From the IMG/VR virus record IMGVR_UViG_3300023116_000385, positions 1 through 22,642 of that record: 22,642 nt of DNA. The stretch is one strand, 5' to 3'. Made by a program: the position numbers and the translations under genes. The notes beneath the pieces were generated by a model. The model saw only the letters and a list, made by a program, of their open reading frames with translations, did not search any database and was not told where the DNA came from. This document shows, piece after piece, positions 2,251 through 20,672 of the stretch. The stretch is from a virus. How positions within the stretch are numbered: the first letter of the stretch is position 1; every line of letters begins with the position of its first letter.

Positions 2251-2460
2251 ATGAACAATGAATTAGATGTAAATGTCCTTATTGCTACCTTACAAAAAAA
2301 GGTAACTGACTTGACTCTTACAAATATTGTATTAGAGGCGAGAAATAAAGATTTATCAAATCGGTTAAATAGTATTATAGAAACAGAGAATGCTATAAAT
2401 GGCAAGCAGAATCAAGTTAAAGAGATCCCTAACTCCGAACTCAGCTCCGACGACTTCTGA
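2251..2460 (+). CDS. Small coiled-coil protein, 69 aa
   Basis: No family is recognised with certainty. The protein is almost entirely one predicted helix: V7, I11, L14, V18, L21, N25, L28, N32, L35, L39 and I42 follow an unbroken 3-4 heptad spacing, with Asn at two 'a' positions (25, 32), as in parallel coiled coils. The C-terminus is polar and acidic (ends SSDDF). A good Shine-Dalgarno sequence 7 nt upstream and the tight packing (9-nt gap upstream, 62-nt overlap with the following fibre gene in another frame) argue that the gene is real. Its place directly before a giant fibre gene recalls T4 gp57A, a 79-aa helical chaperone for tail fibres, but I see no sequence identity that would prove homology. 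It could equally be a minor structural connector. The last ~20 codons are constrained by the overlapping conserved start of the next gene. Confidence 0.75.
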   Translation: MNNELDVNVLIATLQKKVTDLTLTNIVLEARNKDLSNRLNSIIETENAINGKQNQVKEIPNSELSSDDF

Positions 2461-5400
2461 TCTTACAGATAAGGAAGTCGCCCTTAATATTGTCGATAGA
2501 ACCCTATTTGTTAACAATGCGGGTACTATCGAGGAGATTGCCAATGCGGATCCGAACGATGAAAAAATCGTTCCTTCCATGTTCTCAAGTTCCATCACTG
2601 ATGGAGTTGGGAATACTTGGTATGTTTCAAAAAATGGAACAGACAAGGCAACACTTGGTTCTGTAAATCCTAGACATGGGGAAACTACAGGAGCAAATGC
2701 TTGGGGTAAAACTCCAAGCACTGCTTTTCAAACTTTAAAGTATTGTTTGGATAATTATGCTAGTTTAGGTGATACTGTTTTAGTTTCATCAGGAACATTT
2801 GATGAAATTTTTCCCTTAACCATTCCTGTTGGAGTTTCAGTTAAAGGTGCTGGGTTAAAATCAACATTTATTAAACCAACAGTTCCCACAAATGATTTAG
2901 ATGGATTCTTAATTCAAGGTGACTGTAATATTGAGGATCTTTGTGTAAAAGATTTTTATTATAACGCAACAAATGACACAGGATACGCATTTAGATTAGC
3001 ATCTACTTACATTGTAGATAATGGTGGAAGAAGACCTTATATTCAACGCTGTAGTGTAATTACAAAGGGTAGCACTACTTCTGTTAGTGACCCCTATGGA
3101 TACGCTGCTGGAGACGCTGGTAGAGGTGCCTTAGTAGACGGTTCGATTGTTAGTAGTGCCTCCTCAGAAGCAGCACTGCTGTTTAACGAGTGTACATTTG
3201 TTGTACCCAATTCAGTAGGTCTGTATCTCAAAAATGGTGCTCGTTCTGAATGGTTAAACTCATTCACATACTTTGCTGCCGATAGTATTAAGGGTGAAAA
3301 CCCTGGAGGATCTGGTTTTACAGGAGCAGGTAGAACTAGATTAAAACTTAGCAATATTACTGGCACATTTGCTGCTGGTAATACTGTATCTTTATATGAT
3401 ACTGATGGAACAACGGTGCTGGCGAGTGGCACTATTGATGAGAATGATGGGACTTATATTTACATTGACGGTCAAGGCACAGGAGAATTTACAGAAGCAG
3501 CAGCAGATTTAGATGGAAAAACTGTAACTGTAAATGGTGACGCACAATTAGATACTGGAAGAAAGCAACTTGGTACAGCAAGTTTACTTTTAGATGGCAC
3601 TGGCGATTACTTAACTCTTAATGGATCATCTGATTTTGGTTTCGGAACAGGTGACTTTACATTAGAGGGATTTGTATATCTTGACAACACTGCATCTGCA
3701 CAAATTCTATTTGATTTTAGACAAAGTGCTATTGTAGAAGTTGCTCCTGTTGTTTATTTTAATGGAACTGATCTGACATATTATGTCAATAATGTTGCAG
3801 TAATTACTAGCACCATTGCAGCAGGTAATTGGTATCATATCGCTGTAGTAAGAAGTGGAACATCCACTAGAATGTATGTCAACGGATCTCAAGTTGGATC
3901 CACTTACAATGACACCAATGATTATGGGACAACTAAACCACTTGTAATTGGTGCCAACCTTAATGGTGCAGCAGATCTGGCAGGTAGTATTGATGAAGTA
4001 AGAATCAGTAAAGGTGTTGCAAGATATACTGGTGCTTCATTTACAGTTCCTACTGCAGAATTTACTGCTGACGTAAATACTTCACTCCTTCTCCATTTTA
4101 ATGGATTAGATGGTAGCACTGATATCTTTGATGGTGGTATTACCTCTCAAGATATTAGATCTTCTAGTGGTGGTAGTGCATCTTTCATCACTTTAGCAGA
4201 TTACACTGACTTTGGTGCAGAACTTCGTTCTATTGGTTCGGCATCTGTATATGGTGAGCGTGGTGTTACTGCATCTGGTAAGGGTGTAAGATTACGTTGT
4301 GTTGTTCATAACTTTGGTTATATTGGTGTAGGTGCTGATTCCTCCAATGATATCAGTACAGTAGTACAAGCAGACGAAGTTATTGAATCTGGTGGTGGTA
4401 GAGTCCTCTTTACCAGCATGGACCAGAACGGGGACTTCCGTGTTGGTAATGCTTTATTTGTTGATCAAGAAAAAGGAACGATTTCCTTTGCAGGTGGTGG
4501 TGCTGCAGGAACTACCTTTGATAGTGTCACTGTAACTGGATCTGGCAATACTACAACAATTCTTCCTACTAGCATTAGTGTAGGAAATCTTCAATTCTCT
4601 GGAGATACTATTGAGAACTTAAGTACCAATGGTATTGAACTTGGTTCTAGGTTAGAACTTCTGGATGGTTCATCTCCAAATCCATCACTGACATTCATCA
4701 ATGCAAATACAGTTGGTATTTTTAGAGATACTGATTATACTGAATATGCAGTAGATGATAGTGGTGATCTTATTTTAACCCAACCATTGGGTTCTCCAAT
4801 GGCATTTGGATTTAACAGTTCAAGAAAACTTCAGATTGGTAGAAATGTTTCTGCTCTTGCAGACATTGATTTTGTTCAATCTAGTATTGGTGATATTACA
4901 GTTGCATCTCTTGGTAGTAATTATCCTGGTGGTCAGCACACTATTCCACTTACTGGAGGAGCAGGAACTGGAGCGTCAATTACTGCAGTTGTAAGTCCAT
5001 TCTTAGGAACAATCACCAATGCTGGTTCTGGATATGCTGCTGGTACACAACAAACAGAACCAATTGTAGCATCAACTGGTAGTGGTTCAGGTGGTTTAGT
5101 AGATATTGAAATCTATGGTATTGATGGTGGTAATATCAATGGAGGTAGTGGATATTATGGTCCCTATGAATACAATAACGTACCACTTCAAGGAGGATCT
5201 GGAACAGGTGCTCAAGCAAACCTTGTAGTTGGTGCTAATGGTGTTGTTAGCGAAGTTAATATTGTAGTACATGGTACAGGATATGTTCAAGGAGATGTTC
5301 TTACTGTAAATAATGCAGATCTTCAATATGTCGATGCAAACACTCAAGGATTAGTACAATCCCCTGGAAGTGGATTCTCATATACCTTAACCCAACTTCC

Positions 5401-8400
5401 TGGATCCATTAAGAGTTTTGTAGCTAATGTCAATCCTTGGGAAGGATTTGGATATAACGTAGGAGATGTACTTACATTTGTAGATAGTGTTGGTAGTGGT
5501 TCTGGATTTGCATTCACTATTACTGATCTTGGTGTATTAATTGCAGATGAAGTTGGGATTGGTAATACTGGTGATGGATATAACGTAGGTGATAGATTAT
5601 TCTCAACTTATTATGTTGATACTGCAGCACCAATTCAAGGCACTCCTTGGACATCTACAGTAGATGGTGCATTTGGGTATATTAATTATGATGTTATTGT
5701 TCTTCCTGGAGTAAATGATCCAGGTGGAAATAGATATTTTATTGATCTTGGAGATGGAAATGGGCATGTAGAAAAACCTGATCTTCAGTTTAGAAGAAAT
5801 TACGTTTATAGTTTTATATTCTCTGATGCAAACGCAGAAAACCATCCATTTAGATTTTCAACCACTGCCGATGGAACTCATGGTGGTGGAACGGATTTTA
5901 GCACTGATGTAAGAAATCACTACGATGAAAATGGTGCTATCAATGGTGTTCAAATTATAGTAACAGATCAAACACCTAATAATCTTTATTATTATTGTAC
6001 CATTCACCCAGATATGGGAGGATCTAATGGTAATGAAGCAACTATTACTACAAGTGGAACTTTCCAAAGTGGACTGACTATTGATATTGCATCACTGAGT
6101 AAGTCATCAAATACCACCATTAGAAATGATGGTAGTGCAAGATTTGGAGGTCTTGTTCAAACCCCAACCATTGAAAATACTGGTCAGATTGTTACTTCGT
6201 CCCTTTTAGTACAACAATCATCTGGTGGAATTGGTGGAGATGCTACAGTTGAAGGAGATCTTGAAGTTGAAGGTAATGCAACTATTATTGGAGATCTGAT
6301 TGTACAAGGTACATCTGAATTCTCTGCAACTGTTGGCGGTGCTGGTGAAGTTGCTATTGGTGATGCTGATGCAGATACTGTTAACATCCGTGGTGATGTT
6401 GCATTTAATCCAACATATGCAACTCCAGTTCCTCCAGCAACTACTGGAGTTTTACAAGCAGCACAGATCTTCTTAGATCAAAGTGAGGCAAAAGTTGGTA
6501 TCTTTAATCATACCCCAGAGTATGAAGTTGATATTACGGGTGCAGTTAGAACTACTTCAGATCTTTGGTTAGCAACAGATTCTGGATCTGTTAACATTGG
6601 TAGAGATCCCGATGCTTATACTAACGTCGCTAAGTTAGATGTCGGAGGAGACATTCTTGCAAATGGATCTATTACATTAAATGATGGAGATTACAATGCT
6701 CCAGCAATTAAATTTACAGGAAGTGAGTTTGCTGGAATTTATAGTTACGATCTTGGCAACTTAAATTTTGGTGTTGGAATTACAAATATTTCAGGAAAAG
6801 TTGCAGGATTTAATCCAGGTGAAATTGAATTTTATAGAAATGCAAGATTTATTAATGAATCTATTGATACTTTTGAATTTGTAGGTGGGTCTAACTATGC
6901 ATTAGGAAATTACTCAAATGTAACTATTGAGGGTGGAACTGGAAATGGAGCGATTGCAGATATTACTGTTGCATTTGAAGTAGCAATTACAAATGCAGGT
7001 GTAGGATACACTCAAGCATTATATGAAGGAGTATCAATTACTTCAATATCTTCTGCCCCTGCAGGAGCTTTGCAAACATTTAATATTCTTAATGCTGGCG
7101 AAAACTATGTTAATGGAACTTATACAAATGTTCCAGTTTCTGGAGGTGCGGGGACAAATGGCACCTTAAATATTACAATCTCTGGAGGTTTAATTACTGC
7201 AGTTGTTCCCGATAACGTTGGATCAAATTATACTGTAGGGGATCAGTTATCAATCAATACTTCCGATGTTGGTGGATCTAGAATAGATACATTATCAGTT
7301 ACTAATGGTGGATCTGGATATACGGATGGTACATATTTAGGATTACCACTTACAACTTCTAGTGGAACAGGATCTGGTGCTACCGCAGATATTGTTGTCA
7401 GTGGTGGATCGGTAACTCAGGCTAATATTCAAAATACAGGAGGAAATTATTCACTAACTGATGTTTTAACTGTAGATGGTGATGATATTACTATTGCAAC
7501 GGTAGGCAGTATCAGTATTACTTCTGGAAGTTCTGGATATGCTAATGGTACGTATTTAGATGTTAACCTCAATGGAGGAAGTGGTTCGGGATTAACAGCA
7601 GATATAACTGTTTCTGGAAATGCAGTTACAAATGTTGTAGTTAATAATGCTGGTTCAAACTATCTCGTTGGAGATACTCTTAGCGTACTTTCTACAGATG
7701 TAGGTGGAACTGGTGCTGGAGTTATTGCTGGAATTGATATCAATAACGGCGGTACGGGATTTACTGATGGTAGTTATACTGGAGTTGCAGTTAATGGAGG
7801 ATCTGGAACTGGTGCCACAGTAACACTTGACGTTATTGGAGGAGTAGTTTCAACAGTTACTATCTCAAATGGCGGTACTGGATATAATGTTGGAGACAGT
7901 ATTTCATTTGCTGGATACTCAGGTGTAACTGCTAGTGTTGTTTCTTTAGGTCTTCCTACTGGAGCAGCATTTGAAGTTGCCACTATTGTAGTTGGAACTG
8001 GACTGCAAATATCTCCATCTGCATTAACTACTGGATCTGGAGCTTCTATTGAGGTTACAGGAGTTGCTAGTGGATCTGGTGGTGTTGGTGCTTCTGCAGA
8101 CGTTACAGTAAATGCTCAAGGTGTAGTTGAAAAAGTTGTTATTGTTAATGGCGGAAGTGGATATTCAATCGGAGATACTATTAGAGTTTCTGATGGTGAC
8201 ATGCAATATGATGATGGTACTGGAACCATTGTTGCATCAACAACACCTACAACTCAAATGGTACTTACCATTAATGGTAATGGTAATGTTACCGTAGTAG
8301 AATTTAATGAATTAGGAGAAGGATATAGTGCCAATGATGTTTTAACGGTTTCAAATAGCAATTTAGGTGGTCAGGGTGAAGGATTTGAATTAACTGTAAC

Positions 8401-9994
8401 AAACCTAACTTCAGAAACTACCGTAAGTATTGATGAAAAATTAGGTTCTGTTCAAGTAAAACAACTTGATGCTGAAACATTTACTATTGATAATTCATTA
8501 TCACTTACTGGTACAGGAATAATTAAAACAACTGCTGGTAATTTTGAATTATCTGCATTGAGTCCATCTACAATTGAATTTACAGGAACAGATGGAGTTG
8601 TAGTTCCAGTTGGTACTACTGGAGATAGACCAATTGGACAACTTGGTATGATTCGTTATAATAGCGAAGAGAATCAATTTGAAGGATTTAATGGAATTTC
8701 ATTTGTAACTCTTGGTGCAGTTAGGGACGTTGATCTTGATACCTTTATTACTGCAGAAAAAGAAACTGGATTTGATGACGATACTTTCAGATTCTTCAAT
8801 GGTGGTATTCAAACTATATCTCTCACTGACTCTCTTTATAGAGTAAGCAACATTACTAATTTTGAATATGTAGATTTAACTGATGTAACCGAATGGGTAG
8901 AGGGTGAATCCGCAGTTTCCCCATACGATGCAAATGATTTTGACCCAACAAATGATGTAGATATCAATGCCGATACAATTACAGTTACTGCACATAATTT
9001 AACCGAGGGAGTACAAGCAACTTACACTAATAATGGTGGAGTTTCAATTAATCCTTTAATTGAGGGTACTGCATACTACGTTCATGTAGTTGATGAAAAC
9101 ACGATTCAACTTGCAGAAACAGAAGGGAATCTCAACTCTCAAATTTACGTTGATATTACTACAACTTCTACTGATGCAACTCATACACTAACTCCATTAG
9201 ATCCTGATGATATTCTTGTTTACTATGGAACTAATGTATATGCAGTCAAGAGTACTGGATCATTTGATGCTGATCCTGCTAACTTCCCAACACATACTAC
9301 AGGCACTGTAATTAATGGAACTGTTGACTTAGAGTATATTAGAAATATCTTCTCAAGTCCAGTATTCAATGCTAATGATTTCCAATTCTCTGGTGATTCT
9401 ATTACTTTTAATAGTGATGCCTTCAAGTTTGTTGGTGATGCTGCAACATCATCTAGTATCATTACTGCATCACCAGAACTTAAATTTGAGTTTAATGTTG
9501 CTACTGTAGATCAACCATTACTCAAATTTACTAATAGTGGAACTATTGAAGTTAATACTGATTATGGAAGTGCAGAAACTTATAAAGAGGTTCTGACTTA
9601 TGAACTGAATAAGTTTACACTTAAGGACACTCAAGTTCTTTCTGCTGACGCTACAATTGATACTTCAGTTGGTAATGCAGTTAACTTGATTATGGTCCCT
9701 TACGATCAAACCAATTCAATTCTTACAGGACATTCTGGAAGATTGATGGTTGAAATTGTTGACGATTCTGCAACCCCAAGAAGACAATATAGTGAAATTT
9801 CATTCTTGGTAAGTAGTGACAGTTCTTCTGTATATTACACCGAAGTTTCTAAACTATATACTGATGTAGTCCTGTGTGATGTTTCTGCTGATGTAGACAC
9901 AAATGGGAATGTTATTATCGCTGTAGAAGATGTCACTGGATCTTCAACTACAGTTTATAGTATCAAGGCAATCACGAATACAATTCTGGTATAA
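2399..9994 (+). CDS. Giant tail-fibre/adhesin-like structural protein, 2531 aa
   Basis: A mosaic virion fibre protein. The N-terminus MASRIKLKRSLTP..PTTSDL matches the opening of other cyanophage fibre proteins and fixes the start inside the upstream gene; only a weak AGAGA (2385-2389) precedes it. Domains in order: pectate-lyase-like beta-helix beginning WYVSKNGTD (about 72-330) and resuming at about 575-700; a LamG/concanavalin-like domain (about 378-572, LDGTGDYLTL, GNWYHIAVVR, GSIDEVRIS); a first glycine-rich repeat block (about 834-1070); a cupredoxin-like segment (about 1098-1220) with H1149, C1200, H1203 and M1206; beta-rich 'VGIFNHTPEYEVD' region (about 1365); a second glycine-rich repeat block (about 1495-2000); a GMIRYNSEENQFEGFNG motif (about 2084); an NTIQLA module (about 2187-2270); and a C-terminal beta domain (about 2410-2531). 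No protease or hydrolase motif is visible. It probably acts outside the cell in host recognition. Assignment as a fibre is strong; receptor and location are unknown. Confidence 0.88.
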   Translation: MASRIKLKRSLTPNSAPTTSDLTDKEVALNIVDRTLFVNNAGTIEEIANADPNDEKIVPSMFSSSITDGVGNTWYVSKNGTDKATLGSVNPRHGETTGANAWGKTPSTAFQTLKYCLDNYASLGDTVLVSSGTFDEIFPLTIPVGVSVKGAGLKSTFIKPTVPTNDLDGFLIQGDCNIEDLCVKDFYYNATNDTGYAFRLASTYIVDNGGRRPYIQRCSVITKGSTTSVSDPYGYAAGDAGRGALVDGSIVSSASSEAALLFNECTFVVPNSVGLYLKNGARSEWLNSFTYFAADSIKGENPGGSGFTGAGRTRLKLSNITGTFAAGNTVSLYDTDGTTVLASGTIDENDGTYIYIDGQGTGEFTEAAADLDGKTVTVNGDAQLDTGRKQLGTASLLLDGTGDYLTLNGSSDFGFGTGDFTLEGFVYLDNTASAQILFDFRQSAIVEVAPVVYFNGTDLTYYVNNVAVITSTIAAGNWYHIAVVRSGTSTRMYVNGSQVGSTYNDTNDYGTTKPLVIGANLNGAADLAGSIDEVRISKGVARYTGASFTVPTAEFTADVNTSLLLHFNGLDGSTDIFDGGITSQDIRSSSGGSASFITLADYTDFGAELRSIGSASVYGERGVTASGKGVRLRCVVHNFGYIGVGADSSNDISTVVQADEVIESGGGRVLFTSMDQNGDFRVGNALFVDQEKGTISFAGGGAAGTTFDSVTVTGSGNTTTILPTSISVGNLQFSGDTIENLSTNGIELGSRLELLDGSSPNPSLTFINANTVGIFRDTDYTEYAVDDSGDLILTQPLGSPMAFGFNSSRKLQIGRNVSALADIDFVQSSIGDITVASLGSNYPGGQHTIPLTGGAGTGASITAVVSPFLGTITNAGSGYAAGTQQTEPIVASTGSGSGGLVDIEIYGIDGGNINGGSGYYGPYEYNNVPLQGGSGTGAQANLVVGANGVVSEVNIVVHGTGYVQGDVLTVNNADLQYVDANTQGLVQSPGSGFSYTLTQLPGSIKSFVANVNPWEGFGYNVGDVLTFVDSVGSGSGFAFTITDLGVLIADEVGIGNTGDGYNVGDRLFSTYYVDTAAPIQGTPWTSTVDGAFGYINYDVIVLPGVNDPGGNRYFIDLGDGNGHVEKPDLQFRRNYVYSFIFSDANAENHPFRFSTTADGTHGGGTDFSTDVRNHYDENGAINGVQIIVTDQTPNNLYYYCTIHPDMGGSNGNEATITTSGTFQSGLTIDIASLSKSSNTTIRNDGSARFGGLVQTPTIENTGQIVTSSLLVQQSSGGIGGDATVEGDLEVEGNATIIGDLIVQGTSEFSATVGGAGEVAIGDADADTVNIRGDVAFNPTYATPVPPATTGVLQAAQIFLDQSEAKVGIFNHTPEYEVDITGAVRTTSDLWLATDSGSVNIGRDPDAYTNVAKLDVGGDILANGSITLNDGDYNAPAIKFTGSEFAGIYSYDLGNLNFGVGITNISGKVAGFNPGEIEFYRNARFINESIDTFEFVGGSNYALGNYSNVTIEGGTGNGAIADITVAFEVAITNAGVGYTQALYEGVSITSISSAPAGALQTFNILNAGENYVNGTYTNVPVSGGAGTNGTLNITISGGLITAVVPDNVGSNYTVGDQLSINTSDVGGSRIDTLSVTNGGSGYTDGTYLGLPLTTSSGTGSGATADIVVSGGSVTQANIQNTGGNYSLTDVLTVDGDDITIATVGSISITSGSSGYANGTYLDVNLNGGSGSGLTADITVSGNAVTNVVVNNAGSNYLVGDTLSVLSTDVGGTGAGVIAGIDINNGGTGFTDGSYTGVAVNGGSGTGATVTLDVIGGVVSTVTISNGGTGYNVGDSISFAGYSGVTASVVSLGLPTGAAFEVATIVVGTGLQISPSALTTGSGASIEVTGVASGSGGVGASADVTVNAQGVVEKVVIVNGGSGYSIGDTIRVSDGDMQYDDGTGTIVASTTPTTQMVLTINGNGNVTVVEFNELGEGYSANDVLTVSNSNLGGQGEGFELTVTNLTSETTVSIDEKLGSVQVKQLDAETFTIDNSLSLTGTGIIKTTAGNFELSALSPSTIEFTGTDGVVVPVGTTGDRPIGQLGMIRYNSEENQFEGFNGISFVTLGAVRDVDLDTFITAEKETGFDDDTFRFFNGGIQTISLTDSLYRVSNITNFEYVDLTDVTEWVEGESAVSPYDANDFDPTNDVDINADTITVTAHNLTEGVQATYTNNGGVSINPLIEGTAYYVHVVDENTIQLAETEGNLNSQIYVDITTTSTDATHTLTPLDPDDILVYYGTNVYAVKSTGSFDADPANFPTHTTGTVINGTVDLEYIRNIFSSPVFNANDFQFSGDSITFNSDAFKFVGDAATSSSIITASPELKFEFNVATVDQPLLKFTNSGTIEVNTDYGSAETYKEVLTYELNKFTLKDTQVLSADATIDTSVGNAVNLIMVPYDQTNSILTGHSGRLMVEIVDDSATPRRQYSEISFLVSSDSSSVYYTEVSKLYTDVVLCDVSADVDTNGNVIIAVEDVTGSSTTVYSIKAITNTILV
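3530..4115 (+). other. LamG/concanavalin-like domain inside the 2531-aa fibre
   Basis: Residues about 378-572 of the giant fibre. It opens with AQLDTGRKQLGTASLLLDGT, continues with FGFGTGDFTLEGFVYLD and GNWYHIAVVRSGTSTRMYVNG, and closes with GSIDEVRISKGVARYTG. This is the usual order of strands in LamG_3-type laminin-G/ConA-like lectin domains, which commonly bind glycans. It interrupts beta-helix sequence that resumes after about residue 575. Confidence 0.8.
4900..5600 (+). repeat. Glycine-rich repeat block A (coding)
   Basis: Coding repeats in the giant fibre (residues about 834-1070). Successive copies carry LGSNYPGG, NAGSGYAAGT, NGGSGYYGPYEYNNV, HGTGYVQGDVLTV, GFGYNVGDVLTF and TGDGYNVGDRL, often followed by GGSGTGA or GSGSG. 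DNA identity is high locally: the 20-mer at 5192-5211 recurs with one mismatch at 7797-7816. Confidence 0.75.
5690..6060 (+). other. Cupredoxin-like segment with apparent type-1 copper ligands
   Basis: Residues about 1098-1220 of the 2531-aa fibre. A beta-rich stretch (NRYFIDLGDGNGH, then NYVYSFIFSDANAENHPFRFS) contains H1149. It ends in NNLYYYCTIHPDMGG with C1200, H1203 and M1206. In blue copper proteins the ligands are one upstream His followed by Cys, His and Met on a C-terminal loop. The spacing C-x2-H-x2-M equals that of amicyanin, and the 51 residues from H1149 to C1200 are close to the 47 in plastocyanin. Copper binding is inference, not shown. Confidence 0.6.
6880..8400 (+). repeat. 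Glycine-rich repeat block B (coding, ~73-aa period)
   Basis: The longest array in the window (residues about 1495-2000 of the giant fibre). About twelve half-repeats are visible, largely alternating between a GTY type (NAGENYVNGTY, NGGSGYTDGTY, SGSSGYANGTY, NGGTGFTDGSY) and a GD type (NVGSNYTVGDQLSI, NAGSNYLVGDTLSV, NGGTGYNVGDSISF, NGGSGYSIGDTIRV). Equivalent half-repeats recur about every 220 nt in the centre of the block. Confidence 0.8.
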
Positions 9995-10811: not shown

Positions 10812-13800
10812 ATGGCTTTAGAATTTAACGCTGATAAACAGGTTATTAAGTCAGACACCCTTAGAATCAAAAACGATACTAGTGTTCGTTTAGATGTTGG
10901 TGGTGGTGCTGATGAAAAGGTTGCCATTTTTGGCACCCTGACTGATGATGTGGATAAACTGGTTCGTGTTGGTATTAACACAACCAATCCGCAATATGAA
11001 TTGGATGTTGAGGGTCAGATTAGAACGACAACCTCCATCATTTCAGATACTGCTCGTATCGCAAACTTGGATATTGACACGATTGTTAACCCAAGTTTGA
11101 ACCTTCGTGCTCCTATTCTCCAAACATTCCCAGATCCAGATACTGGAGAATTGCTGTACCCTCGTTCGGCAACTCCAACATTTGATGACGACAGCAATAA
11201 AATTGCTACTACCAATTTCGTATATAACATCGCTACAAACGACGTTGGTGGTCGTATTTACGTTTCTGCTCAGATTGGTTCTGATGACTTTGATGGTCGC
11301 TCCGCTACCAAACCAGTTAGAACAATTAAAAGAGCAACTCAACTTGCTGCTCTTACCGATCAAAAAGAAACCCTCATCGTTGCAGGTGGAGATTATTTAG
11401 AAGATAACCCAATCTCCCTGCCAGATCTTTGTTCTGTTGTAGGTGATAACATTCGTCTTTGTATCATTAGACCCCAGAATCCTGGGAAACATATGTTCAA
11501 GGCGTCGAACGAGAACTATGTAACAGGCATTACTTTCCGTGATAATCTTAACTCTGAAGGCAACCCAGCATTTACTTGGGGATATGCTTATGTATTTGAC
11601 GATAAGCAAAGATTCTTCTATCCTAAAACTTTAGGTGGTCAGTATGGAAGAGCATTTGAATTAGGACACAAGATTGCTGCACCTCAAGAATGGGAACTGA
11701 CTTTCAGTTCCAATGGTGGTGGTATTCTTCTTGTTCCTGGATTAGTACTTACAAATACTACCACGTTAGGTACTGGTGTCATTACTGATGTTACTTTTAA
11801 TGATGCTACTGATCAATCAGGTGTCGTCACTATTAACAATATCGTTGGTGATATTGATTCCGTTGGTGCAATCTATCAATACACAACAAATTCTACAACT
11901 TATAACCTTAGTGTAGATGTAGGTGAGCAGTTAACACCAGATGCACAAGTCGTTAAGCATGTAACCAGTCACCAGACATATGGTGTTAAGAGTTTAAAGT
12001 ATGATCCTATTAACTATCCCCAGGGACTTATTGTTACCATTGTTGATGGATTCTATCATGAGTATGAAGTAGGGCAGTATGTAGAACTTGCAAATTTACC
12101 GAATCAGGGAACATTTGGGGATCTTGGTAGATTTAATGGTAGGCAGTATGTTTCTCACAGAATTGAATCAGCTGACGGATTTAGTACTCAATTTGTAGTA
12201 TTTAAAGATACTCCAACTGATCTTATTTCTCTAGGTGCAGTTAATGGTGAGTATAGTGTTACTTCGTTTGGTGCGACTGTAACTTCAGACGATCACTATG
12301 TAGTATTCTCTCTCGATAACTCTCCACGTAAATTTGAAGAATCCAATAAGAGTCCAAACAGATATCTTGATGCTGTTGATCTGATTGGTAGAAACCAAGA
12401 AGGTATTGCAGCAGAGTCCCTTAGAAGAGCTAAGGCAGAATATACCTCTTTAGTTGTTCCTGATGAGGATCAGTGCAAAACCGATATCGGTCATATTATT
12501 AATGCTATTAACTATGACTTGACCTGGGGTGGTAATGCTGCAACCAAGGAAGCAGCAGATTACTACTATGATGCTGGTGCATTAACTCACATTGAGAATC
12601 AACTCAAGGAAACTGGTTACGCATTTGAGCAAGCAAGAGACCTGTCTATTCAGGCAATGCGTAACCAGTTAAATTATGTTGATACTTCAAGCACTGGTAC
12701 ATTTACTAGAGTAAGTGGATACACTGGCGGTCTTAATGCTGCTATCTGGGATAATGAAAAGTTCGTTGCTGTTGGAGATTCTGGAGCAATCCACACTTCA
12801 GTAGATGGTTCTACTTGGGTTGCACAAACAAGTGGAACAACAGAAAATCTTACAGATATCATTTGGAATAAGTGGGCAGTAGGTCTAAGAGGAGTTCCAG
12901 AGTATATTGCAGTAGGTTGGAATGGAACTATTCTCTGGTCAAATAATGGTGAAAATTGGAATAGTGTAACTTCAGGAGTTACTGTAAATCTTCAGGCTAT
13001 TGCATATAATGGTAGCACTTATGTTATAGTTGGTGCTAGTGGAACAGTTTTATATTCAAACAACGTTACATCATGGCAAGCAGGAACAAGTGGTATTGGA
13101 TCTCTTGCTTTATATGACGTAATTTATAATGATGATATTGATAAGTTTATTGCTGTAGGAGCTTTAGGTAAGATTCTTGAATCCTCTGACGGAAATACTT
13201 GGACTGAACAGGAAAGTGGAACAAGTAATATACTTCTTGGTATTACTTGGACTGAAGGTAGAATGGTTGCTACCTCAACTAACGGCAAACTCTGTATCAG
13301 TGATGATGGTGGATTAACTTGGGAAACTAATTATGTCACTTCTAATGTAGAAGCAGATCGTTACCAGGATGCTGCTGATCTTATTCTTGAGAACAAGAAA
13401 CTCATTGCAGCACAGGCAGTTTATGCATATGTTGATGCAAACGCATTTACTATCCCAACTGGCAACCAGAACTGTGTAGACGACGTTGTAGATGTCCTTG
13501 AGGCAATCGCTCATGACATCCGCCATGGTGGTAATGCTGCTACCTATGATGCTGCTTCTTACTATGTTGGTACAACTCATGTTGATGGTGAAGAGGCAGA
13601 AACTGTAGCAATCATCAACAATGCAAGAGATCTTGCTAAAGATGCAATGCGTAATATTTCTATTACGCTTTCATATCTGACAGACAATACTTATACATCT
13701 GGTTTAGAAGCACAGTTTACAACTGACATTGTTCAGTTTACAAAACCAGATATTTCTCTTGATGGATCTGATCCTGCAACTGCATGTGCAGATGTAGCAT

Positions 13801-16800
13801 CTTCCATTGATACTCTGACAACCATTGTTACTACTGCAGTAACTAATGATAACCTCAATCACGCAACCAAAACACTTCCAACAGGAAATATCTCAACTAA
13901 TAGTTTTGGTAAGGTAGTTCATGATGGACATAGATTGTGGACAAGATACAACTCTGGAGCAAGTTCATACATCTATACATCTCAAGATAAAGGAAGAACT
14001 TGGGAACTTTCATATACCTCAAACAGCGGTCCAACCTATGCATTTGCGTTTAGTTACACTGTAGGTGTAGTTCTTGGTGCTAATAATGCCGATATCCTTT
14101 TTGATGGAGTAGGAACCGAGTTTGATGCTTCACTTGGTATTGCTGTATATCAAGATGATACAATTTCAAATACTTATGATTCTAACAGATTCTTTGCCTG
14201 CGACAATGTAGCAAACTCTCTGTATACTTTGTGGAATATTGTCATTGATAGAATCAATGGTCGCAGCACTGCTCCAGTAGAGTATGCAACATCATCTTAT
14301 GCAGATAGCAATAATAAGTTCTTTAATATTGGTCATTCCTGGGATGATCTTCCAATCATTGAAGTATCTCCATACATCTTCAACTCATCTGTAATTTCAT
14401 TCCTCGGTGGTGGTGGATGTGAAATTGATGGAAATAAAGTTGCAGAACCTAACGTAAGAAGACCAAACTTGCCTCCACAAGGTAAGTCGATGGTTGCTGC
14501 TGCATTCACTATCATTTCATTTGGTGGTACAGCATACAGAGTATTTAATGATGGATATACCCAGCTGGTTTCGGTATTCTGTATCTTCACTCAAGATGGA
14601 GCACTTGTCGAATCTGGTGGTTATGCATCACTGACCAACTCTGCATCTAACTTTGGTACATATTCACTCAGAGCATCTGGATTTAGGGAAGAAGCATATT
14701 CATTCCACAAAGGTGAAATTGATAATATTACCTTTACCGATATTGGTAGACCAATCATTACTGTTGATGGTTTGGGTGAGGCACCTCTTGAGCATTATCT
14801 TATTAGACCACAAGGTTTTGAGTTGACTAGTGGTGCTGGTCAAAACCCTGAATACTTTATTGAAAATACTATTTCAGCTACACCAACTGCTCCTATTACA
14901 GCAGAGGTCCAAGCTAACTCGACAATGAGAGTTAGAGGTAACGAAAACCGTTACACTGATGCATCAGTTCTTCTTGAAAAGAATGCTCGTTATATTGCAG
15001 AAGAAGCATACTTCACTACTGCAGCAACCTCTACAAATACCTTTGATCAAAATAGAGACAAGTGTATTCGTGACGTAGAAGAAATCGTTAAGGCATGGGC
15101 AACTGATATTAAGTTTGATGCAAATGATGCAACTTGGGATGCTGCTAAACTATATGTAAGTGGCAATGCAATTCAACACGTTGCTGGTTACGAAGCAGCA
15201 ACTAAGGAAGTTCTTGATGAAGCAGTATCACTTGCTAAGAAAGCAATCAATAATCTTTTGGTAATTAAGGGCGGAACTATTACTGCTCAGCAGTCAACCA
15301 ATGGTTACTACGTAGCACAATGGACTGATGAAATTCCATATGTTGATAATACAGTCATTCATGACATCTCAACTGCTCCCGATTATGTAAGTGGTGATTG
15401 CGCTAACGTACAATCAGCACTTCAAACTTTAAATGATCTGTTTGATGAAATTCTCGATAACCCATCAATTGAAGGCACTCAGGGAGATCCATTCCCAAGT
15501 GCTACAGAAAGAGATGATGGATTCTTTGTTATTAATGAATTCAACAAAGTTAAATTACAGAATCACCCAATTGATTTCTTAAGACCATCTATTTGCAACT
15601 CGTCTTCACACACATGGGAATTCTCTGGTTCTGGTAATGATTATAATGCTCTGCCCCAAAATGGTGGTACAAGAGGTTCAGATCAAACTGGTGACTTTGA
15701 ACAAGTATCCCAGTTAAACGGTCGTGTTTATGCATCAGGTACTGACGAACTTGGTGACTTCAAGATTGGTTACTTTGCTAACGTAGAAAACAGAACTGGT
15801 AACATTACCTTTGGTGGTACTGTTGAAATTTCCGAAGTTAGCTTCCTGAAAATTAGTGGCAGTAATGTAACCATTGAAGGATTCTCTACAGACAATACCT
15901 TAGGTGCTGTTGAACTTGGTGGTCCTGGTCCAGTTGATGAATTACTCTCGACTCAGAAAGCAGTATATGAATACATTAGTAACCAGTTAGGTATTTACAT
16001 TGGTCGTACTTATTCTACTGTTCCAACTCCAAATGCTCTGGTTCAGTTAGACAACTCTGGTCGTATCAATATTGACCAACTGCCAGCACTGAGACCATTT
16101 AATATCTTCACTGTTGTTGATGAAGCAGCACGTCTTTCACTTGAAGGACCACTTGCTGGTGACATTGTTATTCAAACCGCAACACAAGAGTTTAACTTTA
16201 CATCATCTGATATTAATACAACCACAGATGAGTTTACCATTAATAATCATGGTCTTAACACCTCTGACGCTGTTATCTATTATGAAGGAACGGGAACTGT
16301 AACAGCACCTTCACCTCTGGTAGATGGAGAAACTTACTATGCTATTGTTATTGATGCTAATACAATTCAGTTAGCATCTTCAATTACAGACGCTTCTTCT
16401 GGAACTGAAATTACTATTACAAACGCTGGTTCTGGTAACCACATCTTTGAAACTCAAGGTACTCCAATTTCATACATTCTTAACAATGATTTGGATAGTC
16501 AGATTCTTGAATTTGTTCCAGATACTTTACATACATTCAGTAATGGTGATTTTACTCTGGCATCTCCAGGTGGGGGTCAGGGTCAGGTAACTAATTTCCT
16601 TGTAGGTACAGTAACACAAGTTGTTGTTAATAATGGTGGTAATTCTTATGTAAATGGAGACACTGTTACATTTACAGCACCTTCTGGAGGCACTGCAGCA
16701 GTTGTCGGTACTGTTACTGTCAATGGTGGTCAAATTACTGGTGTAACTCTAACTTCTGGTGGTGATAATTATTTTGTTGCTCCATCTACAGCAGCAGGAA

Positions 16801-19800
16801 CTATTACCGTCAATAGTTCTACAGGATCTGGTGCCATCTTAACAACTATTATTAGATCTAGATTAAGTATCAATATCATTAATAGTATTAAGACAGAAGT
16901 TACTGATACGATTGATGATCAGGCAGGTACTCCTAATACTATTACACTTTCAAACGTTGTTAATACTTCAGGTTTTGATGCCGATAACTGGATTCAGTTA
17001 ACGTCTTCTACAATTGATGCTTCGTTTATTACATCAGGTATTATTAACCCAACTCGACTTGCATCTGTTACTGCACAGAATCCAGCAAGTTCTCTGACAT
17101 ACTTACGTGGTGACTCATTATTCTCGCCTGCAGTATCGTCTATGAGAATTGGTGATGACTCACCAATCATTCTGGGTGCTAACAATAGTGTAAGTACTTA
17201 TATTAAACAGATTCAAATTGAAGACGGTGGTCAAGGATATACCGTTGGAACTTATACTGATACTAACCTTCTTGGTGGTAATGGAGCAAATCTGAAAGGT
17301 ACAATTAAGGTATCTAATGGAGTTGTAAGTTCTGTCACCATTACAAATGGTGGTACAGGATATACTGAATTACCTACAGTAACATTCAAGGACAATTGGA
17401 CAGATCCCCAAAATCCATCTATTTTGACTAGTGTCAAAGCAATTGCTGTTATTTCTAGTGGTCAAGTTGTTGGAATTAATATTCTTGATGGTACTTCTGG
17501 ATTAGGTAGTAATACTCCTGTTATTGAAATTACTGGTGGTAATGGTGTAGATGCTACTGCAACCGCTACTGTAACTGACGGCGCAATTCAATATATTACT
17601 ATTACTGATCCTGGTGTTGGGTATTCTGGATCTGGTAATGCAACCTCATTTACAATTACTCCAATTCCACCAATCATTGGTACAGGAACATCGGCAGCAA
17701 CTCTGCTCGCAATGTATGCAACATCACCTAAACTTTCTAACGATGTTGTTATTGATATTGATAGAGTTAATGGTAATACTCCAAACGCTAATGCATATAG
17801 TACTGTTGGTGTTTCTAAGTTTAGAAAGTCAGATACTGGATCTGGTGTAAGGATTGGTCAGTTTATTATTGGTGCTGATGGCGCTATTGATATTGACCAA
17901 GGTCAAGGTTCTGGATTCGATGCTGACTTACTTGACAACAAAGATTCTAACTTCTATGTTGAATGTGATAACTTTGTACCAGGAAGTACAGCAACTCCAG
18001 GTCTTCCTGCAAACTGCCTCATTGGTACTTATGGTATTGACATTGATGGTACATCAAGTTTCGGTGAAATCCTGACTGCAAAGGATGCAAGGACTTCTAC
18101 ATTCCAACCATCCAACTATCTTGCAGGTGGTCACTTCCAGTGGAAAGATAATGATGCTAACCCTGGTTATGCTAATGAATGGGAATTCCTTGAAGATGGT
18201 GGTCTCTATCATGGTGTAATTACTTTAAGAAGGGGTGGTACTTCAACTACCTTTGCTGAAGGTGCAATGAATCAGTTGGCAGTAACTGATAACAATAACC
18301 TGTTCTTAAGAAACAGTGGTCCAAACCATGTAAACTCTCTGACAATTACTACTGCTGGTTCTGGTTATGTTAACGGCACTTACTATGATGTCCCTCTGGG
18401 TGGTGGTACTGGATATGGTCTGAAAGCTAATCTTACTGTAGTCAATGGATCTTTCACTAATGTAGAAATTACAGATAAAGGTTGGGGATATAACTTAACT
18501 GGTTCTTCTTCACCTACTTTCCAAGTTGAACTTCCATTTAGCATTTTTGGTGAGCAAAATACTAGAAATTACACCACAGTAGCAGTCATTACTGCATCAC
18601 TGCCTGTATATCAAAACAATGCAGGACTCGATGTATGGTCTTCCTGGAGAAAGGTTTGGCATGATGGCAATGACGGTGTAGGTTCAGGTCTTGATTCAGA
18701 TCTGTTCCAAGGTTATAACAGACGTTGGTATCAAAGTGGTCTCAATACTATTACTGATACAATCAATAATAGCAGAATTCCAACTCAATTGGAAGAGCAT
18801 TCTTTCAATAAAGAAGTAAGAATTACTGTTCCAAATCCAGCGTTCCAGACAAGTAACGGCGCACATTATGATTTGTATATTGAAGGATATAATATTACTG
18901 AAGAAGTATTAAATGCTCTTGATACAGTTGCTGGTGGAGACACTTCTATTAACCTGTATACCGCTAATAATGTTAATGAAGGTACAGTAAGAATCCTTAA
19001 GAGACATATCAATCTTGATCCTGCCAATTACTTAACTGGCACACAATATGTTGAAGAAAATACAGAATGGACATCAAATACAAACGGTTATAATAGAAAT
19101 GATCGTATTGTATACGGTCATAACATTTACAGAGTTGCTAATTCTGTAACTGGCAATTACAACTCTGGTACTGTTCCCCCAACACATATTAGTGGAACGG
19201 TAACTGCAACTAACGGTGATGCCGAATTCGAGTTTGAAAGAAGAGTTTCTAATCCATGGACAGTTCTTACTGTTGAACTGATTTCAGGTAACCTGAACAG
19301 CACCATTAAGAAAGTTGGTACTGCAACTGCTCCTGCAGAATACTATCCACTGACTGACTTTGGTGTAGCTAAGGAAGAAACTTATTCTAAGGTCAAGGCA
19401 AAGTTCGGTTCGGATTCTACTGGAACTTCATACTTAAATCTTGGTAATATTACAGAATCAACTTCACCATATATTGATTTTAATTCTTCTGGTAATAATG
19501 TTGATTATGATGTAAGAATTTCTGCAAGTGGTGGTTCTAGCACTCTTGGAACTGGTAACCTCAACTTCCAAGCAAATGCTGCTCAAGTTAATGGTAATAC
19601 TATTTGGCACGCAGGTAACGTTGCATTTGATACTGGCGTCACTGGAACTGCACCTGCATTAACTTATAATACTGCAGGTAATAGTGATGCAGTTCTTCGT
19701 ACTTCTAATGGTGACTTTGGTGGAAGATACATCGTTGCATCTTCTGGATTTATTGGTACTGCTACTGGTAACCTGCCACTGACTGGTGGCACTATGTCAG

Positions 19801-20672
19801 GTGACATTACCTTCAACCAAGATCAGCAAGGTATTGTCTGGTCAAGAAATACTGATGGTGCATCTATCAAGTTCTACAATACTGGAGATGGAGATACCAA
19901 TTCTAGATTAGAATTTGAAGTAAATGATAATCTTAATGAGTATTTTAGGTGGACTCATAGGCAGGGAACTACCTTCTATGAAGGTATGAGATTGACTGTT
20001 GGTAATTCTAACAACTCACTGTTAAGAATTACTGGTAATCTTCAGGTTGGTTCTTCTGCAGCAAATCAAAATATTAGAATCAAGGGTCAATATAATGATA
20101 TTAGAATTCACAATACTAGCGATGATTCTTGGTTTGAAATGCTCAAACCAGATGGAACCGTTGTTGGTCAGATGGGATTCAATGGATACTCATCTGCTAC
20201 TAACAGATATGCTTGGTTCCAGTTATTAACTAGAAACACTTCCAACAGCTTCTCTCAGAGAATGTCTGTCAATGAAGTTGGTAATATTGGTTTCCAAGGT
20301 AATCCAGATAATAATTATTCCGTTACCGTCAATGGTTCCTTTGCTGCAACAAGTAAGTCCTTCTTAATTGATCACCCAACTAAGGAAGGATTCAAACTTG
20401 CACATGGTTCACTTGAGGGTCCTGAGCATGGTGTATACGTCAGAGGACGTGTCACAGATGGTGTAATTGAACTTCCTGAGTATTGGACAGCACTTGTCGA
20501 TGAGGAGACCATTACAGTTCAACTGACTGCAATTGGTGACTCTGGCAATCGTTGGGTAATTGATGTCGCTGATAATAAGATCACGACTGGTGGCGGGGCG
20601 GCGTTCTACTTTGTACAAGCAGAACGTAAGGATGTAAATAGATTAGAAGTTGAAATCGAAACAGGAGAGTAA
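10812..20672 (+). CDS. Giant tail-fibre/adhesin-like structural protein, 3286 aa
   Basis: The largest gene here; a mosaic virion fibre with cyanophage-type motifs throughout. Order: VGINTTNPQYELDV opening (about 55-70); pectate-lyase-like beta-helix starting IYVSAQIGSDDFDG (about 147-480); helical module copy 1 (517-625, C555); five Ycf48/Asp-box propeller blades (about 629-845); helical copy 2 (850-1010, C888, C992); a sixth Asp-box SQDKGRTW (1057-1064); a helical segment with C1130; a beta-helix with PYIFNSSVISFLGGGG (about 1186-1330); helical copy 3 (1380-1540, C1418, C1530); NSSSHTWEFSGSGNDYNAL (about 1596-1614); an NTIQLA module (about 1800-1880); glycine-rich repeats (about 1937-2010, 2132-2283, 2510-2573); GSGFDADLLDNKDSNFY (about 2366) and GSGLDSDLFQGYNRRWY (about 2624); NGNTIWHAGN (about 2927); LPLTGGTMSGDITF (about 2988); and a conserved tip domain (3183-3286). 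No peptidase S74 dyad is recognisable. Probably an extended receptor-binding appendage; location in the virion is inferred. Confidence 0.88.
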   Translation: MALEFNADKQVIKSDTLRIKNDTSVRLDVGGGADEKVAIFGTLTDDVDKLVRVGINTTNPQYELDVEGQIRTTTSIISDTARIANLDIDTIVNPSLNLRAPILQTFPDPDTGELLYPRSATPTFDDDSNKIATTNFVYNIATNDVGGRIYVSAQIGSDDFDGRSATKPVRTIKRATQLAALTDQKETLIVAGGDYLEDNPISLPDLCSVVGDNIRLCIIRPQNPGKHMFKASNENYVTGITFRDNLNSEGNPAFTWGYAYVFDDKQRFFYPKTLGGQYGRAFELGHKIAAPQEWELTFSSNGGGILLVPGLVLTNTTTLGTGVITDVTFNDATDQSGVVTINNIVGDIDSVGAIYQYTTNSTTYNLSVDVGEQLTPDAQVVKHVTSHQTYGVKSLKYDPINYPQGLIVTIVDGFYHEYEVGQYVELANLPNQGTFGDLGRFNGRQYVSHRIESADGFSTQFVVFKDTPTDLISLGAVNGEYSVTSFGATVTSDDHYVVFSLDNSPRKFEESNKSPNRYLDAVDLIGRNQEGIAAESLRRAKAEYTSLVVPDEDQCKTDIGHIINAINYDLTWGGNAATKEAADYYYDAGALTHIENQLKETGYAFEQARDLSIQAMRNQLNYVDTSSTGTFTRVSGYTGGLNAAIWDNEKFVAVGDSGAIHTSVDGSTWVAQTSGTTENLTDIIWNKWAVGLRGVPEYIAVGWNGTILWSNNGENWNSVTSGVTVNLQAIAYNGSTYVIVGASGTVLYSNNVTSWQAGTSGIGSLALYDVIYNDDIDKFIAVGALGKILESSDGNTWTEQESGTSNILLGITWTEGRMVATSTNGKLCISDDGGLTWETNYVTSNVEADRYQDAADLILENKKLIAAQAVYAYVDANAFTIPTGNQNCVDDVVDVLEAIAHDIRHGGNAATYDAASYYVGTTHVDGEEAETVAIINNARDLAKDAMRNISITLSYLTDNTYTSGLEAQFTTDIVQFTKPDISLDGSDPATACADVASSIDTLTTIVTTAVTNDNLNHATKTLPTGNISTNSFGKVVHDGHRLWTRYNSGASSYIYTSQDKGRTWELSYTSNSGPTYAFAFSYTVGVVLGANNADILFDGVGTEFDASLGIAVYQDDTISNTYDSNRFFACDNVANSLYTLWNIVIDRINGRSTAPVEYATSSYADSNNKFFNIGHSWDDLPIIEVSPYIFNSSVISFLGGGGCEIDGNKVAEPNVRRPNLPPQGKSMVAAAFTIISFGGTAYRVFNDGYTQLVSVFCIFTQDGALVESGGYASLTNSASNFGTYSLRASGFREEAYSFHKGEIDNITFTDIGRPIITVDGLGEAPLEHYLIRPQGFELTSGAGQNPEYFIENTISATPTAPITAEVQANSTMRVRGNENRYTDASVLLEKNARYIAEEAYFTTAATSTNTFDQNRDKCIRDVEEIVKAWATDIKFDANDATWDAAKLYVSGNAIQHVAGYEAATKEVLDEAVSLAKKAINNLLVIKGGTITAQQSTNGYYVAQWTDEIPYVDNTVIHDISTAPDYVSGDCANVQSALQTLNDLFDEILDNPSIEGTQGDPFPSATERDDGFFVINEFNKVKLQNHPIDFLRPSICNSSSHTWEFSGSGNDYNALPQNGGTRGSDQTGDFEQVSQLNGRVYASGTDELGDFKIGYFANVENRTGNITFGGTVEISEVSFLKISGSNVTIEGFSTDNTLGAVELGGPGPVDELLSTQKAVYEYISNQLGIYIGRTYSTVPTPNALVQLDNSGRINIDQLPALRPFNIFTVVDEAARLSLEGPLAGDIVIQTATQEFNFTSSDINTTTDEFTINNHGLNTSDAVIYYEGTGTVTAPSPLVDGETYYAIVIDANTIQLASSITDASSGTEITITNAGSGNHIFETQGTPISYILNNDLDSQILEFVPDTLHTFSNGDFTLASPGGGQGQVTNFLVGTVTQVVVNNGGNSYVNGDTVTFTAPSGGTAAVVGTVTVNGGQITGVTLTSGGDNYFVAPSTAAGTITVNSSTGSGAILTTIIRSRLSINIINSIKTEVTDTIDDQAGTPNTITLSNVVNTSGFDADNWIQLTSSTIDASFITSGIINPTRLASVTAQNPASSLTYLRGDSLFSPAVSSMRIGDDSPIILGANNSVSTYIKQIQIEDGGQGYTVGTYTDTNLLGGNGANLKGTIKVSNGVVSSVTITNGGTGYTELPTVTFKDNWTDPQNPSILTSVKAIAVISSGQVVGINILDGTSGLGSNTPVIEITGGNGVDATATATVTDGAIQYITITDPGVGYSGSGNATSFTITPIPPIIGTGTSAATLLAMYATSPKLSNDVVIDIDRVNGNTPNANAYSTVGVSKFRKSDTGSGVRIGQFIIGADGAIDIDQGQGSGFDADLLDNKDSNFYVECDNFVPGSTATPGLPANCLIGTYGIDIDGTSSFGEILTAKDARTSTFQPSNYLAGGHFQWKDNDANPGYANEWEFLEDGGLYHGVITLRRGGTSTTFAEGAMNQLAVTDNNNLFLRNSGPNHVNSLTITTAGSGYVNGTYYDVPLGGGTGYGLKANLTVVNGSFTNVEITDKGWGYNLTGSSSPTFQVELPFSIFGEQNTRNYTTVAVITASLPVYQNNAGLDVWSSWRKVWHDGNDGVGSGLDSDLFQGYNRRWYQSGLNTITDTINNSRIPTQLEEHSFNKEVRITVPNPAFQTSNGAHYDLYIEGYNITEEVLNALDTVAGGDTSINLYTANNVNEGTVRILKRHINLDPANYLTGTQYVEENTEWTSNTNGYNRNDRIVYGHNIYRVANSVTGNYNSGTVPPTHISGTVTATNGDAEFEFERRVSNPWTVLTVELISGNLNSTIKKVGTATAPAEYYPLTDFGVAKEETYSKVKAKFGSDSTGTSYLNLGNITESTSPYIDFNSSGNNVDYDVRISASGGSSTLGTGNLNFQANAAQVNGNTIWHAGNVAFDTGVTGTAPALTYNTAGNSDAVLRTSNGDFGGRYIVASSGFIGTATGNLPLTGGTMSGDITFNQDQQGIVWSRNTDGASIKFYNTGDGDTNSRLEFEVNDNLNEYFRWTHRQGTTFYEGMRLTVGNSNNSLLRITGNLQVGSSAANQNIRIKGQYNDIRIHNTSDDSWFEMLKPDGTVVGQMGFNGYSSATNRYAWFQLLTRNTSNSFSQRMSVNEVGNIGFQGNPDNNYSVTVNGSFAATSKSFLIDHPTKEGFKLAHGSLEGPEHGVYVRGRVTDGVIELPEYWTALVDEETITVQLTAIGDSGNRWVIDVADNKITTGGGAAFYFVQAERKDVNRLEVEIETGE
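12360..12690 (+). repeat. Helical module, copy 1 (coding)
   Basis: Residues 517-626 of the 3286-aa fibre. It starts RYLDAVDLIGRNQEGIAAES, then C555-KTDI, a YDLTWGGNAAT motif, and ends QARDLSIQAMRN. The Arg-to-Cys distance is 38 residues, the same as in copies 2 and 3. The second helical part (C-x-x-V-x-x-S/A-L-x-T-L) does not follow here; propeller blades begin instead. Confidence 0.75.
12700..13345 (+). other. Ycf48/Asp-box beta-propeller blades
   Basis: Residues about 629-845 of the 3286-aa fibre. Five blade-like repeats carry FVAVGDSGAIHTS, YIAVGWNGTILWS, YVIVGASGTVLYS, FIAVGALGKILES and a weaker fifth. Each is followed by an Asp-box-like turn: SVDGSTW (663), SNNGENW (710), SNNVTSW (749), SSDGNTW (791), SDDGGLTW (830). 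The spacing of 39-47 residues and the pattern fit Ycf48-like/BNR propellers. A binding role is likely; no sialidase catalytic residues are evident. Confidence 0.75.
13359..13850 (+). repeat. Helical module, copy 2 (coding)
   Basis: Residues 850-1013 of the 3286-aa fibre. It starts RYQDAADLILENKKLIAAQA, then C888-VDDV, AHDIRHGGNAAT, NARDLAKDAMRN, and a second helical part C992-ADVASSIDTL. This copy appears complete. Confidence 0.75.
14949..15465 (+). repeat. Helical module, copy 3 (coding)
   Basis: Residues 1380-1551 of the 3286-aa fibre. It starts RYTDASVLLEKNARYIAEEA, then C1418-IRDV, TDIKFDANDATWDAA, DEAVSLAKKAINN, and a second helical part C1530-ANVQSALQTL. It is complete but more diverged: the GGNAAT motif has become DANDAT. 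Confidence 0.7.
16600..16840 (+). repeat. Glycine-rich repeat block C (coding)
   Basis: Residues about 1930-2010 of the 3286-aa fibre, with NNGGNSYVNGDTVTF and SGGDNYFVAPST half-repeats. They are of the same family as the arrays in the 2531-aa fibre. Confidence 0.65.
17200..17660 (+). repeat. Glycine-rich repeat block D (coding)
   Basis: Residues about 2130-2283 of the 3286-aa fibre: DGGQGYTVGTYTDTNL, NGGTGYTELPTVTF and DPGVGYSGSGN half-repeats separated by GG-x-G-A and V-S-S-V-T-I segments. Confidence 0.65.
18340..18530 (+). repeat. Glycine-rich repeat block E (coding)
   Basis: Residues about 2510-2573 of the 3286-aa fibre: one full GTY-type unit (TAGSGYVNGTYYDVPLGGGT) followed by a diverged second half (DKGWGYNL). 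Confidence 0.65.
20358..20669 (+). other. Conserved C-terminal tip domain of the 3286-aa fibre
   Basis: Residues 3183-3286: SFLIDHPTKEGFKLAHG, SLEGPEHGVYVRG, then VIELPEYWTALVDEE and ITVQLTAIGD. I recognise this ending from many cyanophage and other phage fibre proteins, where it closes the protein. It probably has a folding, trimerisation or receptor-contact role. The Ser/Lys signature of S74 self-cleaving tailspike domains is not apparent. Confidence 0.65.
20663..20667 (+). promoter_or_regulatory. Ribosome binding site of the LamG-like gene
   Basis: AGGAG lies in the last codons of the 3286-aa gene, 11 nt before the ATG at 20679. It supports this start and coupled translation of the two genes. 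Confidence 0.6.

Follow-up and report, generated by a model that had tools for sequence, protein, structure and literature searches.

A phycobiliprotein-like module among domains nested four levels deep in a Kyanoviridae tail-fibre protein

Introduction

Multi-level insertion of one protein domain into another is known from SI3 of the cyanobacterial RpoC2, in which up to six levels occur (PMC13114784). In a quite different setting, the beta subunits of phycobiliproteins carry two bilin-attachment sites, beta-Cys82/84 and beta-Cys153/155, of which the latter is served by T-type bilin lyases of the CpeT family (PMC10452541, PMC10254012); the role of the cpeT gene carried by phages has been described as unresolved (PMC3037559). 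No link between phycobiliproteins and phage tails was found in the literature that we searched. Here we describe a giant tail-fibre gene in the virus record IMGVR_UViG_3300023116_000385, a stretch of 22,642 bases (hereafter the window) in which giant structural genes lie in a row. The open reading frame at 10812-20672 (+) encodes a protein of 3286 residues that contains a four-level nest of domain insertions: a beta-helix encloses a helical module (module 1), which encloses a seven-bladed propeller, which in turn encloses a second complete module (module 2), and an uninterrupted module 3 follows. As RpoC2 reaches six levels, the fibre nest is no record in depth alone, and it is the nature of the layers that sets it apart, the helical module being a divergent homologue of the phycobiliproteins.

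Results and discussion

The 3286-residue protein is a member of a Kyanoviridae tail-fibre family, as indicated by its match to the phrog_5342 profile (1856 bits) and by the syntenic gene order, its gene occupying the position of the giant fibre gene of these phages (S-RSM4 SRSM4_146, S-CAM4, S-PM2d088). A Pfam search with the whole protein masked domain signals. Separate profiles were made for the first half of the module (H1), its second half (H2), the propeller blade (BL) and the N-terminal and C-terminal parts of the beta-helix (BHN and BHC), and were mapped onto 24 orthologues and then onto further metagenomic contigs, the relatives given L numbers below. Along the window protein they occur in the order BHN (147-266), H1 (517-618), five blades (641-844), module 2 (850-1012), H2 (1128-1150), BHC (1176-1300) and module 3 (1380-1550). 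The resulting features, with window coordinates, are as follows (AF2, AlphaFold; pLDDT, predicted local distance difference test).

10812..20672, + strand: tail-fibre protein gene, 3286 residues (phrog_5342/4527 tail fibre; synteny)
11232..11621, + strand: level 0, N-terminal part of the beta-helix, residues 141-270, DUF1565-like (BHN E=3e-69; PF07602 19.9 bits, cut-off 20.3)
12342..12665, + strand: level 1, first half of module 1, residues 511-618 (R517, C555, D558), phycobiliprotein-like (H1 E=2e-39; PF00502 17.2 bits, below cut-off; AF2 helices 517-616)
12717..13346, + strand: level 2, propeller blades 1-5, residues 636-845 (BL profile; Foldseek matches to seven-bladed propellers and YCF48)
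13347..13871, + strand: level 3, complete module 2, residues 846-1020 (C888, C992), between blades 5 and 6 (profiles; AF2 pLDDT 91; Foldseek)
13893..14135, + strand: level 2 resumed, blades 6-7, residues 1028-1108, with the Asp-box SQDKGRTW at 1057-1064 (HHalign to blades 1-5; seven strands in the model)
14139..14270, + strand: level 1 resumed, second half of module 1, residues 1110-1153 (DDTI motif, C1130, last helix) (H2 E=2e-12; aligns to the L045 module)
14325..14711, + strand: level 0 resumed, C-terminal part of the beta-helix, residues 1172-1300 (BHC E=1e-72; contiguous with BHN in L023, L231 and L232)
14931..15470, + strand: module 3, uninterrupted, residues 1374-1553 (C1418-I-R-D, C1530) (profiles)

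A preliminary description of the sequence had pointed out three copies of the helical first half and three of the second. All of its landmarks are present, namely the Arg-Cys pairs R517/C555, R850/C888 and R1380/C1418, each with a spacing of 38, the second-half motifs C992-ADVASSIDTL, C1130-DNVANSLYTL and C1530-ANVQSALQTL, and the Cys-Cys distances of 104 (888-992) and 112 (1418-1530) residues. Both halves are repeated in the window beyond chance (H1 E=2e-39, 5e-34 and 2e-36; H2 E=3e-10, 2e-12 and 4e-12), and five propeller blades (blade profile E=1e-14 to 1e-19) do lie between the first half of copy 1 and module 2.

The same description held that copy 1 is interrupted by about 465 residues, and comparison with relatives that lack the insertion bears this out. 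In L045 module 1 is in one piece, from H1 at 518 to H2 at 675 with a Cys-Cys distance of 100, and residues 507-618 and 1110-1160 of the window protein align to this one continuous module, the two blocks being separated by about 20 residues in L045 vs 491 in the window. The insert thus spans residues ~619-1109, 491 in all and ~470 once the normal linker is subtracted. In L043 a whole second module is nested in the same module, with no propeller. These alignments support the view that copy 1 is a split domain, the two parts of which would come together in a single fold.

The propeller is larger than previously described. The Asp-box blade at 1057-1064, which had been taken to stand alone, is one of two further blades (residues ~1028-1108) that resemble blades 1-5 (HHalign score 31.7 vs a shuffle maximum of 16.9). 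An AlphaFold model was made of residues 141-1336, of which 517-1148 are mostly at pLDDT 75-95. When this model was compared with known structures by Foldseek, single seven-bladed propellers of 286-310 residues matched over ~490-510 alignment columns, a span that implies that module 2 is skipped within the alignment and hence lies between blades 5 and 6. The best propeller matches, 7big_A (template modelling score, TM, 0.75) and the YCF48 structure 5ojr_C (TM 0.72), lie in a range of 0.70-0.75 across both parts, whereas matches to blades 1-5 only cover 222 columns at TM 0.52-0.58. As modelled, the propeller is one seven-bladed YCF48-like body interrupted by module 2 between blades 5 and 6. At the sequence level the PF14870 (YCF48/PSII_BNR) profile gave 17 bits for the propeller, below its cut-off of 27, and a phmmer search with the propeller against Protein Data Bank (PDB) sequences gave no significant match.

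The outermost layer was recognized in the same way, by relatives in which it is whole. BHN and BHC are contiguous in L023, L231 and L232; in the first of these, the freshwater phage DSL-LC03 (residues 123-919), modules are present but inserted elsewhere in the same beta-helix, and in S-SRM01 (619 residues) and AG-341-P01 the beta-helix occurs without any modules. By alignment, then, the beta-helix of the window protein is split by the whole nest. The Kyanoviridae orthologues (S-RSM4, S-CAM4, ACG-2014h, Syn1, S-RIM32, S-PM2 and others) likewise have modules between both beta-helix parts: two in S-RSM4 and S-CAM4, with no propeller, and more in S-PM2.

The helical module was compared with known proteins by both sequence and structure. 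HHalign of the module against a phycobiliprotein profile gave a probability of 96.7%, an E-value of 3.7e-10 and a score of 62.5, as compared to 21.4 for the best of 100 column shuffles and 14.3 for the reversed control. A first module-profile search of solved structures returned almost only phycobiliproteins, and with a profile of 60 modules against the PDB all 60 among the matches listed were phycobiliproteins (best E 2.8e-5). In the opposite direction, the module profile was run against four cyanobacterial genomes, and 17 of 17 hits were phycobiliprotein genes. A phycobiliprotein profile run against phage proteins gave 37 matches at E<0.01, always on H1, while reversed sequences reached only 0.8. 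PF00502 itself matches eight of 26 modules, and of eight named phages four (S-WAM2, S-RSM4, S-PM2 and DSL-LC03) have giant tail proteins that exceed its cut-off; only Synechococcus elongatus was positive among the control genomes. Further supporting the relationship, the AlphaFold model of window module 2 (pLDDT 91, predicted TM score 0.89) has the globin-like phycobiliprotein fold, and all 50 among the Foldseek matches listed for it in the PDB are phycobiliproteins, mostly beta subunits, over 169-181 columns. Among viruses it matches tail proteins of cyanophages as well as uncultured phages, and as a query against 50,697 phage records module 2 found 331 matches, every one in a cyanophage. Together the profile comparisons and the model show the module to be a divergent phycobiliprotein homologue with a globin-like fold.

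The best explanation overall is, very probably, a four-level nest in a tail-fibre (adhesin) protein, the module being a phycobiliprotein homologue that keeps both bilin Cys positions and C-x-x-D. Several points weigh against it. The adhesive role is a putative one, deduced from the family annotation and from position, and the large model is of low confidence in its beta-helix parts (pLDDT < 50), so that level 0 rests on sequence. The window modules fall below the PF00502 cut-off (17.2 bits vs 22.2 for module 1), the Foldseek E-values are 2e-3 or weaker with TM mostly ~0.5-0.65, and significant sequence similarity to phycobiliproteins is limited to ~66 residues. The X-Y helical hairpin, which mediates alpha-beta pairing, is without counterpart in the alignments, which begin at about residue 30 of the phycobiliprotein, and the second half alone gave no significant match to beta-phycobiliproteins. 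As the alignments show no hairpin counterpart, the window copies score below threshold and a chromophore is only hypothetical, we class the module as a homologue with a similar fold and not as an antenna phycobiliprotein.

As the second half gave no significant match on its own, we examined the Cys153 correspondence by jackknifing and shuffling the whole-module alignment. C888 fell on beta-Cys82/84 in 60/60 jackknifes and C992 on beta-Cys153/155 in 58/60, the latter dropping to 2/100 after shuffling of the C-terminal columns. Across the family these positions hardly vary: of 227 distinct sequences 220 retain the H1 Cys, and the Asp at C+3 is present in 226/226 and the H2 Cys in 165/165. The motif C-x-R-D occurs in 109/109 phycobiliproteins; among 59 Cys-bearing modules the C+2 residue is Arg in 36 and Asp in 23, with Asp at C+3 in all. 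All three window modules have the Cys and Asp of this motif, and only module 3 has the Arg.

Such conservation raises the question of whether the modules bind bilin (phycoerythrobilin) covalently at one or both cysteines, with phage CpeT or lyases of the host attaching it, which would make the fibre a pigmented or redox/light-sensitive adhesin. In addition to the near invariance of both bilin Cys positions and the C+3 Asp, this idea draws on the distribution of CpeT, whose family, as noted above, includes the lyases acting on beta-Cys153/155 (PMC10452541, PMC10254012) and whose role in phages has been called unsettled (PMC3037559). In 28 named cyanophages CpeT was never found without modules (19 with both, three with modules only, none with CpeT only, six with neither), so that it is present in 19 of 22 module-bearing and none of six module-free phages (Fisher 2e-4, uncorrected for phylogeny); 13 genomes added later regardless of module content gave p=0.02 on their own. 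On the other hand, the CpeT statistics carry the phylogenetic caveat just given, three phages have modules but no CpeT, R86 of C-x-R-D is replaced by Asp in 23/59 modules, and the invariant cysteines may be structural. When bilin reductase genes were examined, they did not track the modules (6/19, including S-SSM7, which has no modules). We therefore consider bilin binding unlikely, if the strongest of the alternatives, and we give as little credit to its bolder form, in which cyanomyovirus tails carry their own phycobiliproteins, with bilin placed by phage CpeT on the Cys at the beta153/155 position of the fibre modules, and phage bilin genes serve the virion and not the host antenna.

Somewhat less likely still is the suggestion of the preliminary description that the two cysteines within a module are joined by a disulphide or bind a metal. 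In its favour, the pair hardly varies, its members are found together, and virions are extracellular. However, the cysteines align with two separate bilin-attachment positions, which argues against a disulphide, since the beta82/84 and beta153/155 sites lie far apart in known phycobiliprotein structures, and no conserved His/Cys cluster is found beside them.

Convergence, in which an unrelated helical bundle has come upon C-x-x-D by chance, could appeal to the shortness of the similarity and the simplicity of globin-like folds, but it is very improbable: the column-shuffled and reversed controls fail, sequence and fold searches give phycobiliproteins and nothing comparable besides, and the modules are found only in viruses of phycobiliprotein-bearing hosts. 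Hardly credible is an arrangement without true nesting, in which tandem modules have left one copy short of a half and one orphan half, for although 500 residues separate copy 1 from the C1130 segment, both halves occur in balanced order in 13/13 full-length propeller-bearing relatives, second halves without a partner are seen only in contigs that begin inside the gene, and unsplit or differently split copies stand at the same place in relatives.

The relatives also show where insertion takes place. One more whole module lies between blade 5 and module 2 in five longer relatives (L006, L007, L008, L010 and L012) and in L036; the equivalent loop of another module holds different insertions in S-CAM4, ACG-2014h, S-RIM32 and Sf-FP1; and in L039-L041 ~1,000 residues of beta-repeats lie inside module 2 (~830-1790 in L041, for example), forming a fifth level. 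The finding of alternative inserts at one loop marks the loop before the last helix as a general insertion site. The propeller nest was found only in metagenomic contigs; the named isolates examined are without it, related propellers being present there in other proteins.

The beta-repeats of L039-L041 are units of ~100 residues with the pattern TPTxATYDPxTG...HGLxxGxx...F.C..DGN...YPR, and the same repeats are present in other loops of the S-RIM32, Sf-FP1, Syn1 and ACG-2014j fibres. The Asp-box propeller is likewise a shuffled domain among phage proteins. Related propellers are found in baseplate-wedge proteins (L230, S-SSM7 gp7 and other cyanophage gp7) and in a hypothetical protein of Limnohabitans phage DC31.

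We suggest that the module most likely serves as a rigid, insertion-tolerant scaffold on the fibre. The loop that joins the AMRN helix to the last helix would be a hot spot for exchangeable domains (propeller, beta-repeats, more modules), and the inserted domains may be held away from the shaft for binding to the host surface, which would give the nest an adhesive role. For the module itself we infer a host origin, in that it was probably taken from, or shares common ancestry with, the antenna proteins of the cyanobacterial host, and it appears that viruses have made an antenna protein part of their tails. If so, abundant ocean viruses have repeatedly put the fold of a photosynthetic antenna to use as a structural tail module, thousands of residues of unannotated cyanophage fibre can be assigned a fold, a clean insertion site is defined for the exchange of adhesive domains, and cpeT, the phage gene for a bilin lyase, gains a specific candidate substrate.

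Two observations concern the rest of the fibre and its neighbour. The C-terminal ~110 residues of the fibre (window 20340-20672) include a conserved motif, KSFLIDHPTKEGFKLAHGSLEGPEHGVYVRG, that is common to many phage fibres (phrog_28536, phrog_17490). In the adjacent protein of 2531 residues (window 2399-9994), a Laminin_G_3 (LamG) domain occupies residues 399-538 and a BHN-like match lies at 120-193, so that LamG, too, apparently lies within a beta-helix, which suggests the same style of insertion as in the fibre.

Comparison with known systems

Among the known systems that come closest to the window protein are the giant fibres of the Kyanoviridae (S-RSM4 SRSM4_146, S-PM2d088, P-HM1 YapH), which have the same synteny and a split beta-helix enclosing modules but, in the named isolates examined, no propeller nest. 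With YCF48/HCF136 (PF14870) and other Asp-box/BNR propellers the fibre propeller shares seven blades and DGxTW Asp boxes, YCF48 being among the top structure matches; it differs in falling below the family cut-off and in having another complete domain lodged between blades 5 and 6.

The module resembles the phycobiliprotein beta subunits (phycocyanin/phycoerythrin, PF00502) in its globin-like fold over nearly its whole length (TM ~0.6), in the N-x-x-x-I helix and C-x-x-D, and in its Cys at the beta82/84 and beta153/155 positions. In contrast to these subunits, it is part of a tail fibre, with 12-27% identity in profile alignments and no X-Y hairpin aligned; Arg86 is not in all modules, the segment before the last helix is longer and accepts large insertions, and a bilin on it is hypothetical. 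The likeness to RpoC2 SI3 (PMC13114784) is one of architecture, both being multi-level nested insertions, but whereas RpoC2 reuses a single small fold, the viral fibre is built of four unlike layers: beta-helix, globin-like, propeller and globin-like.

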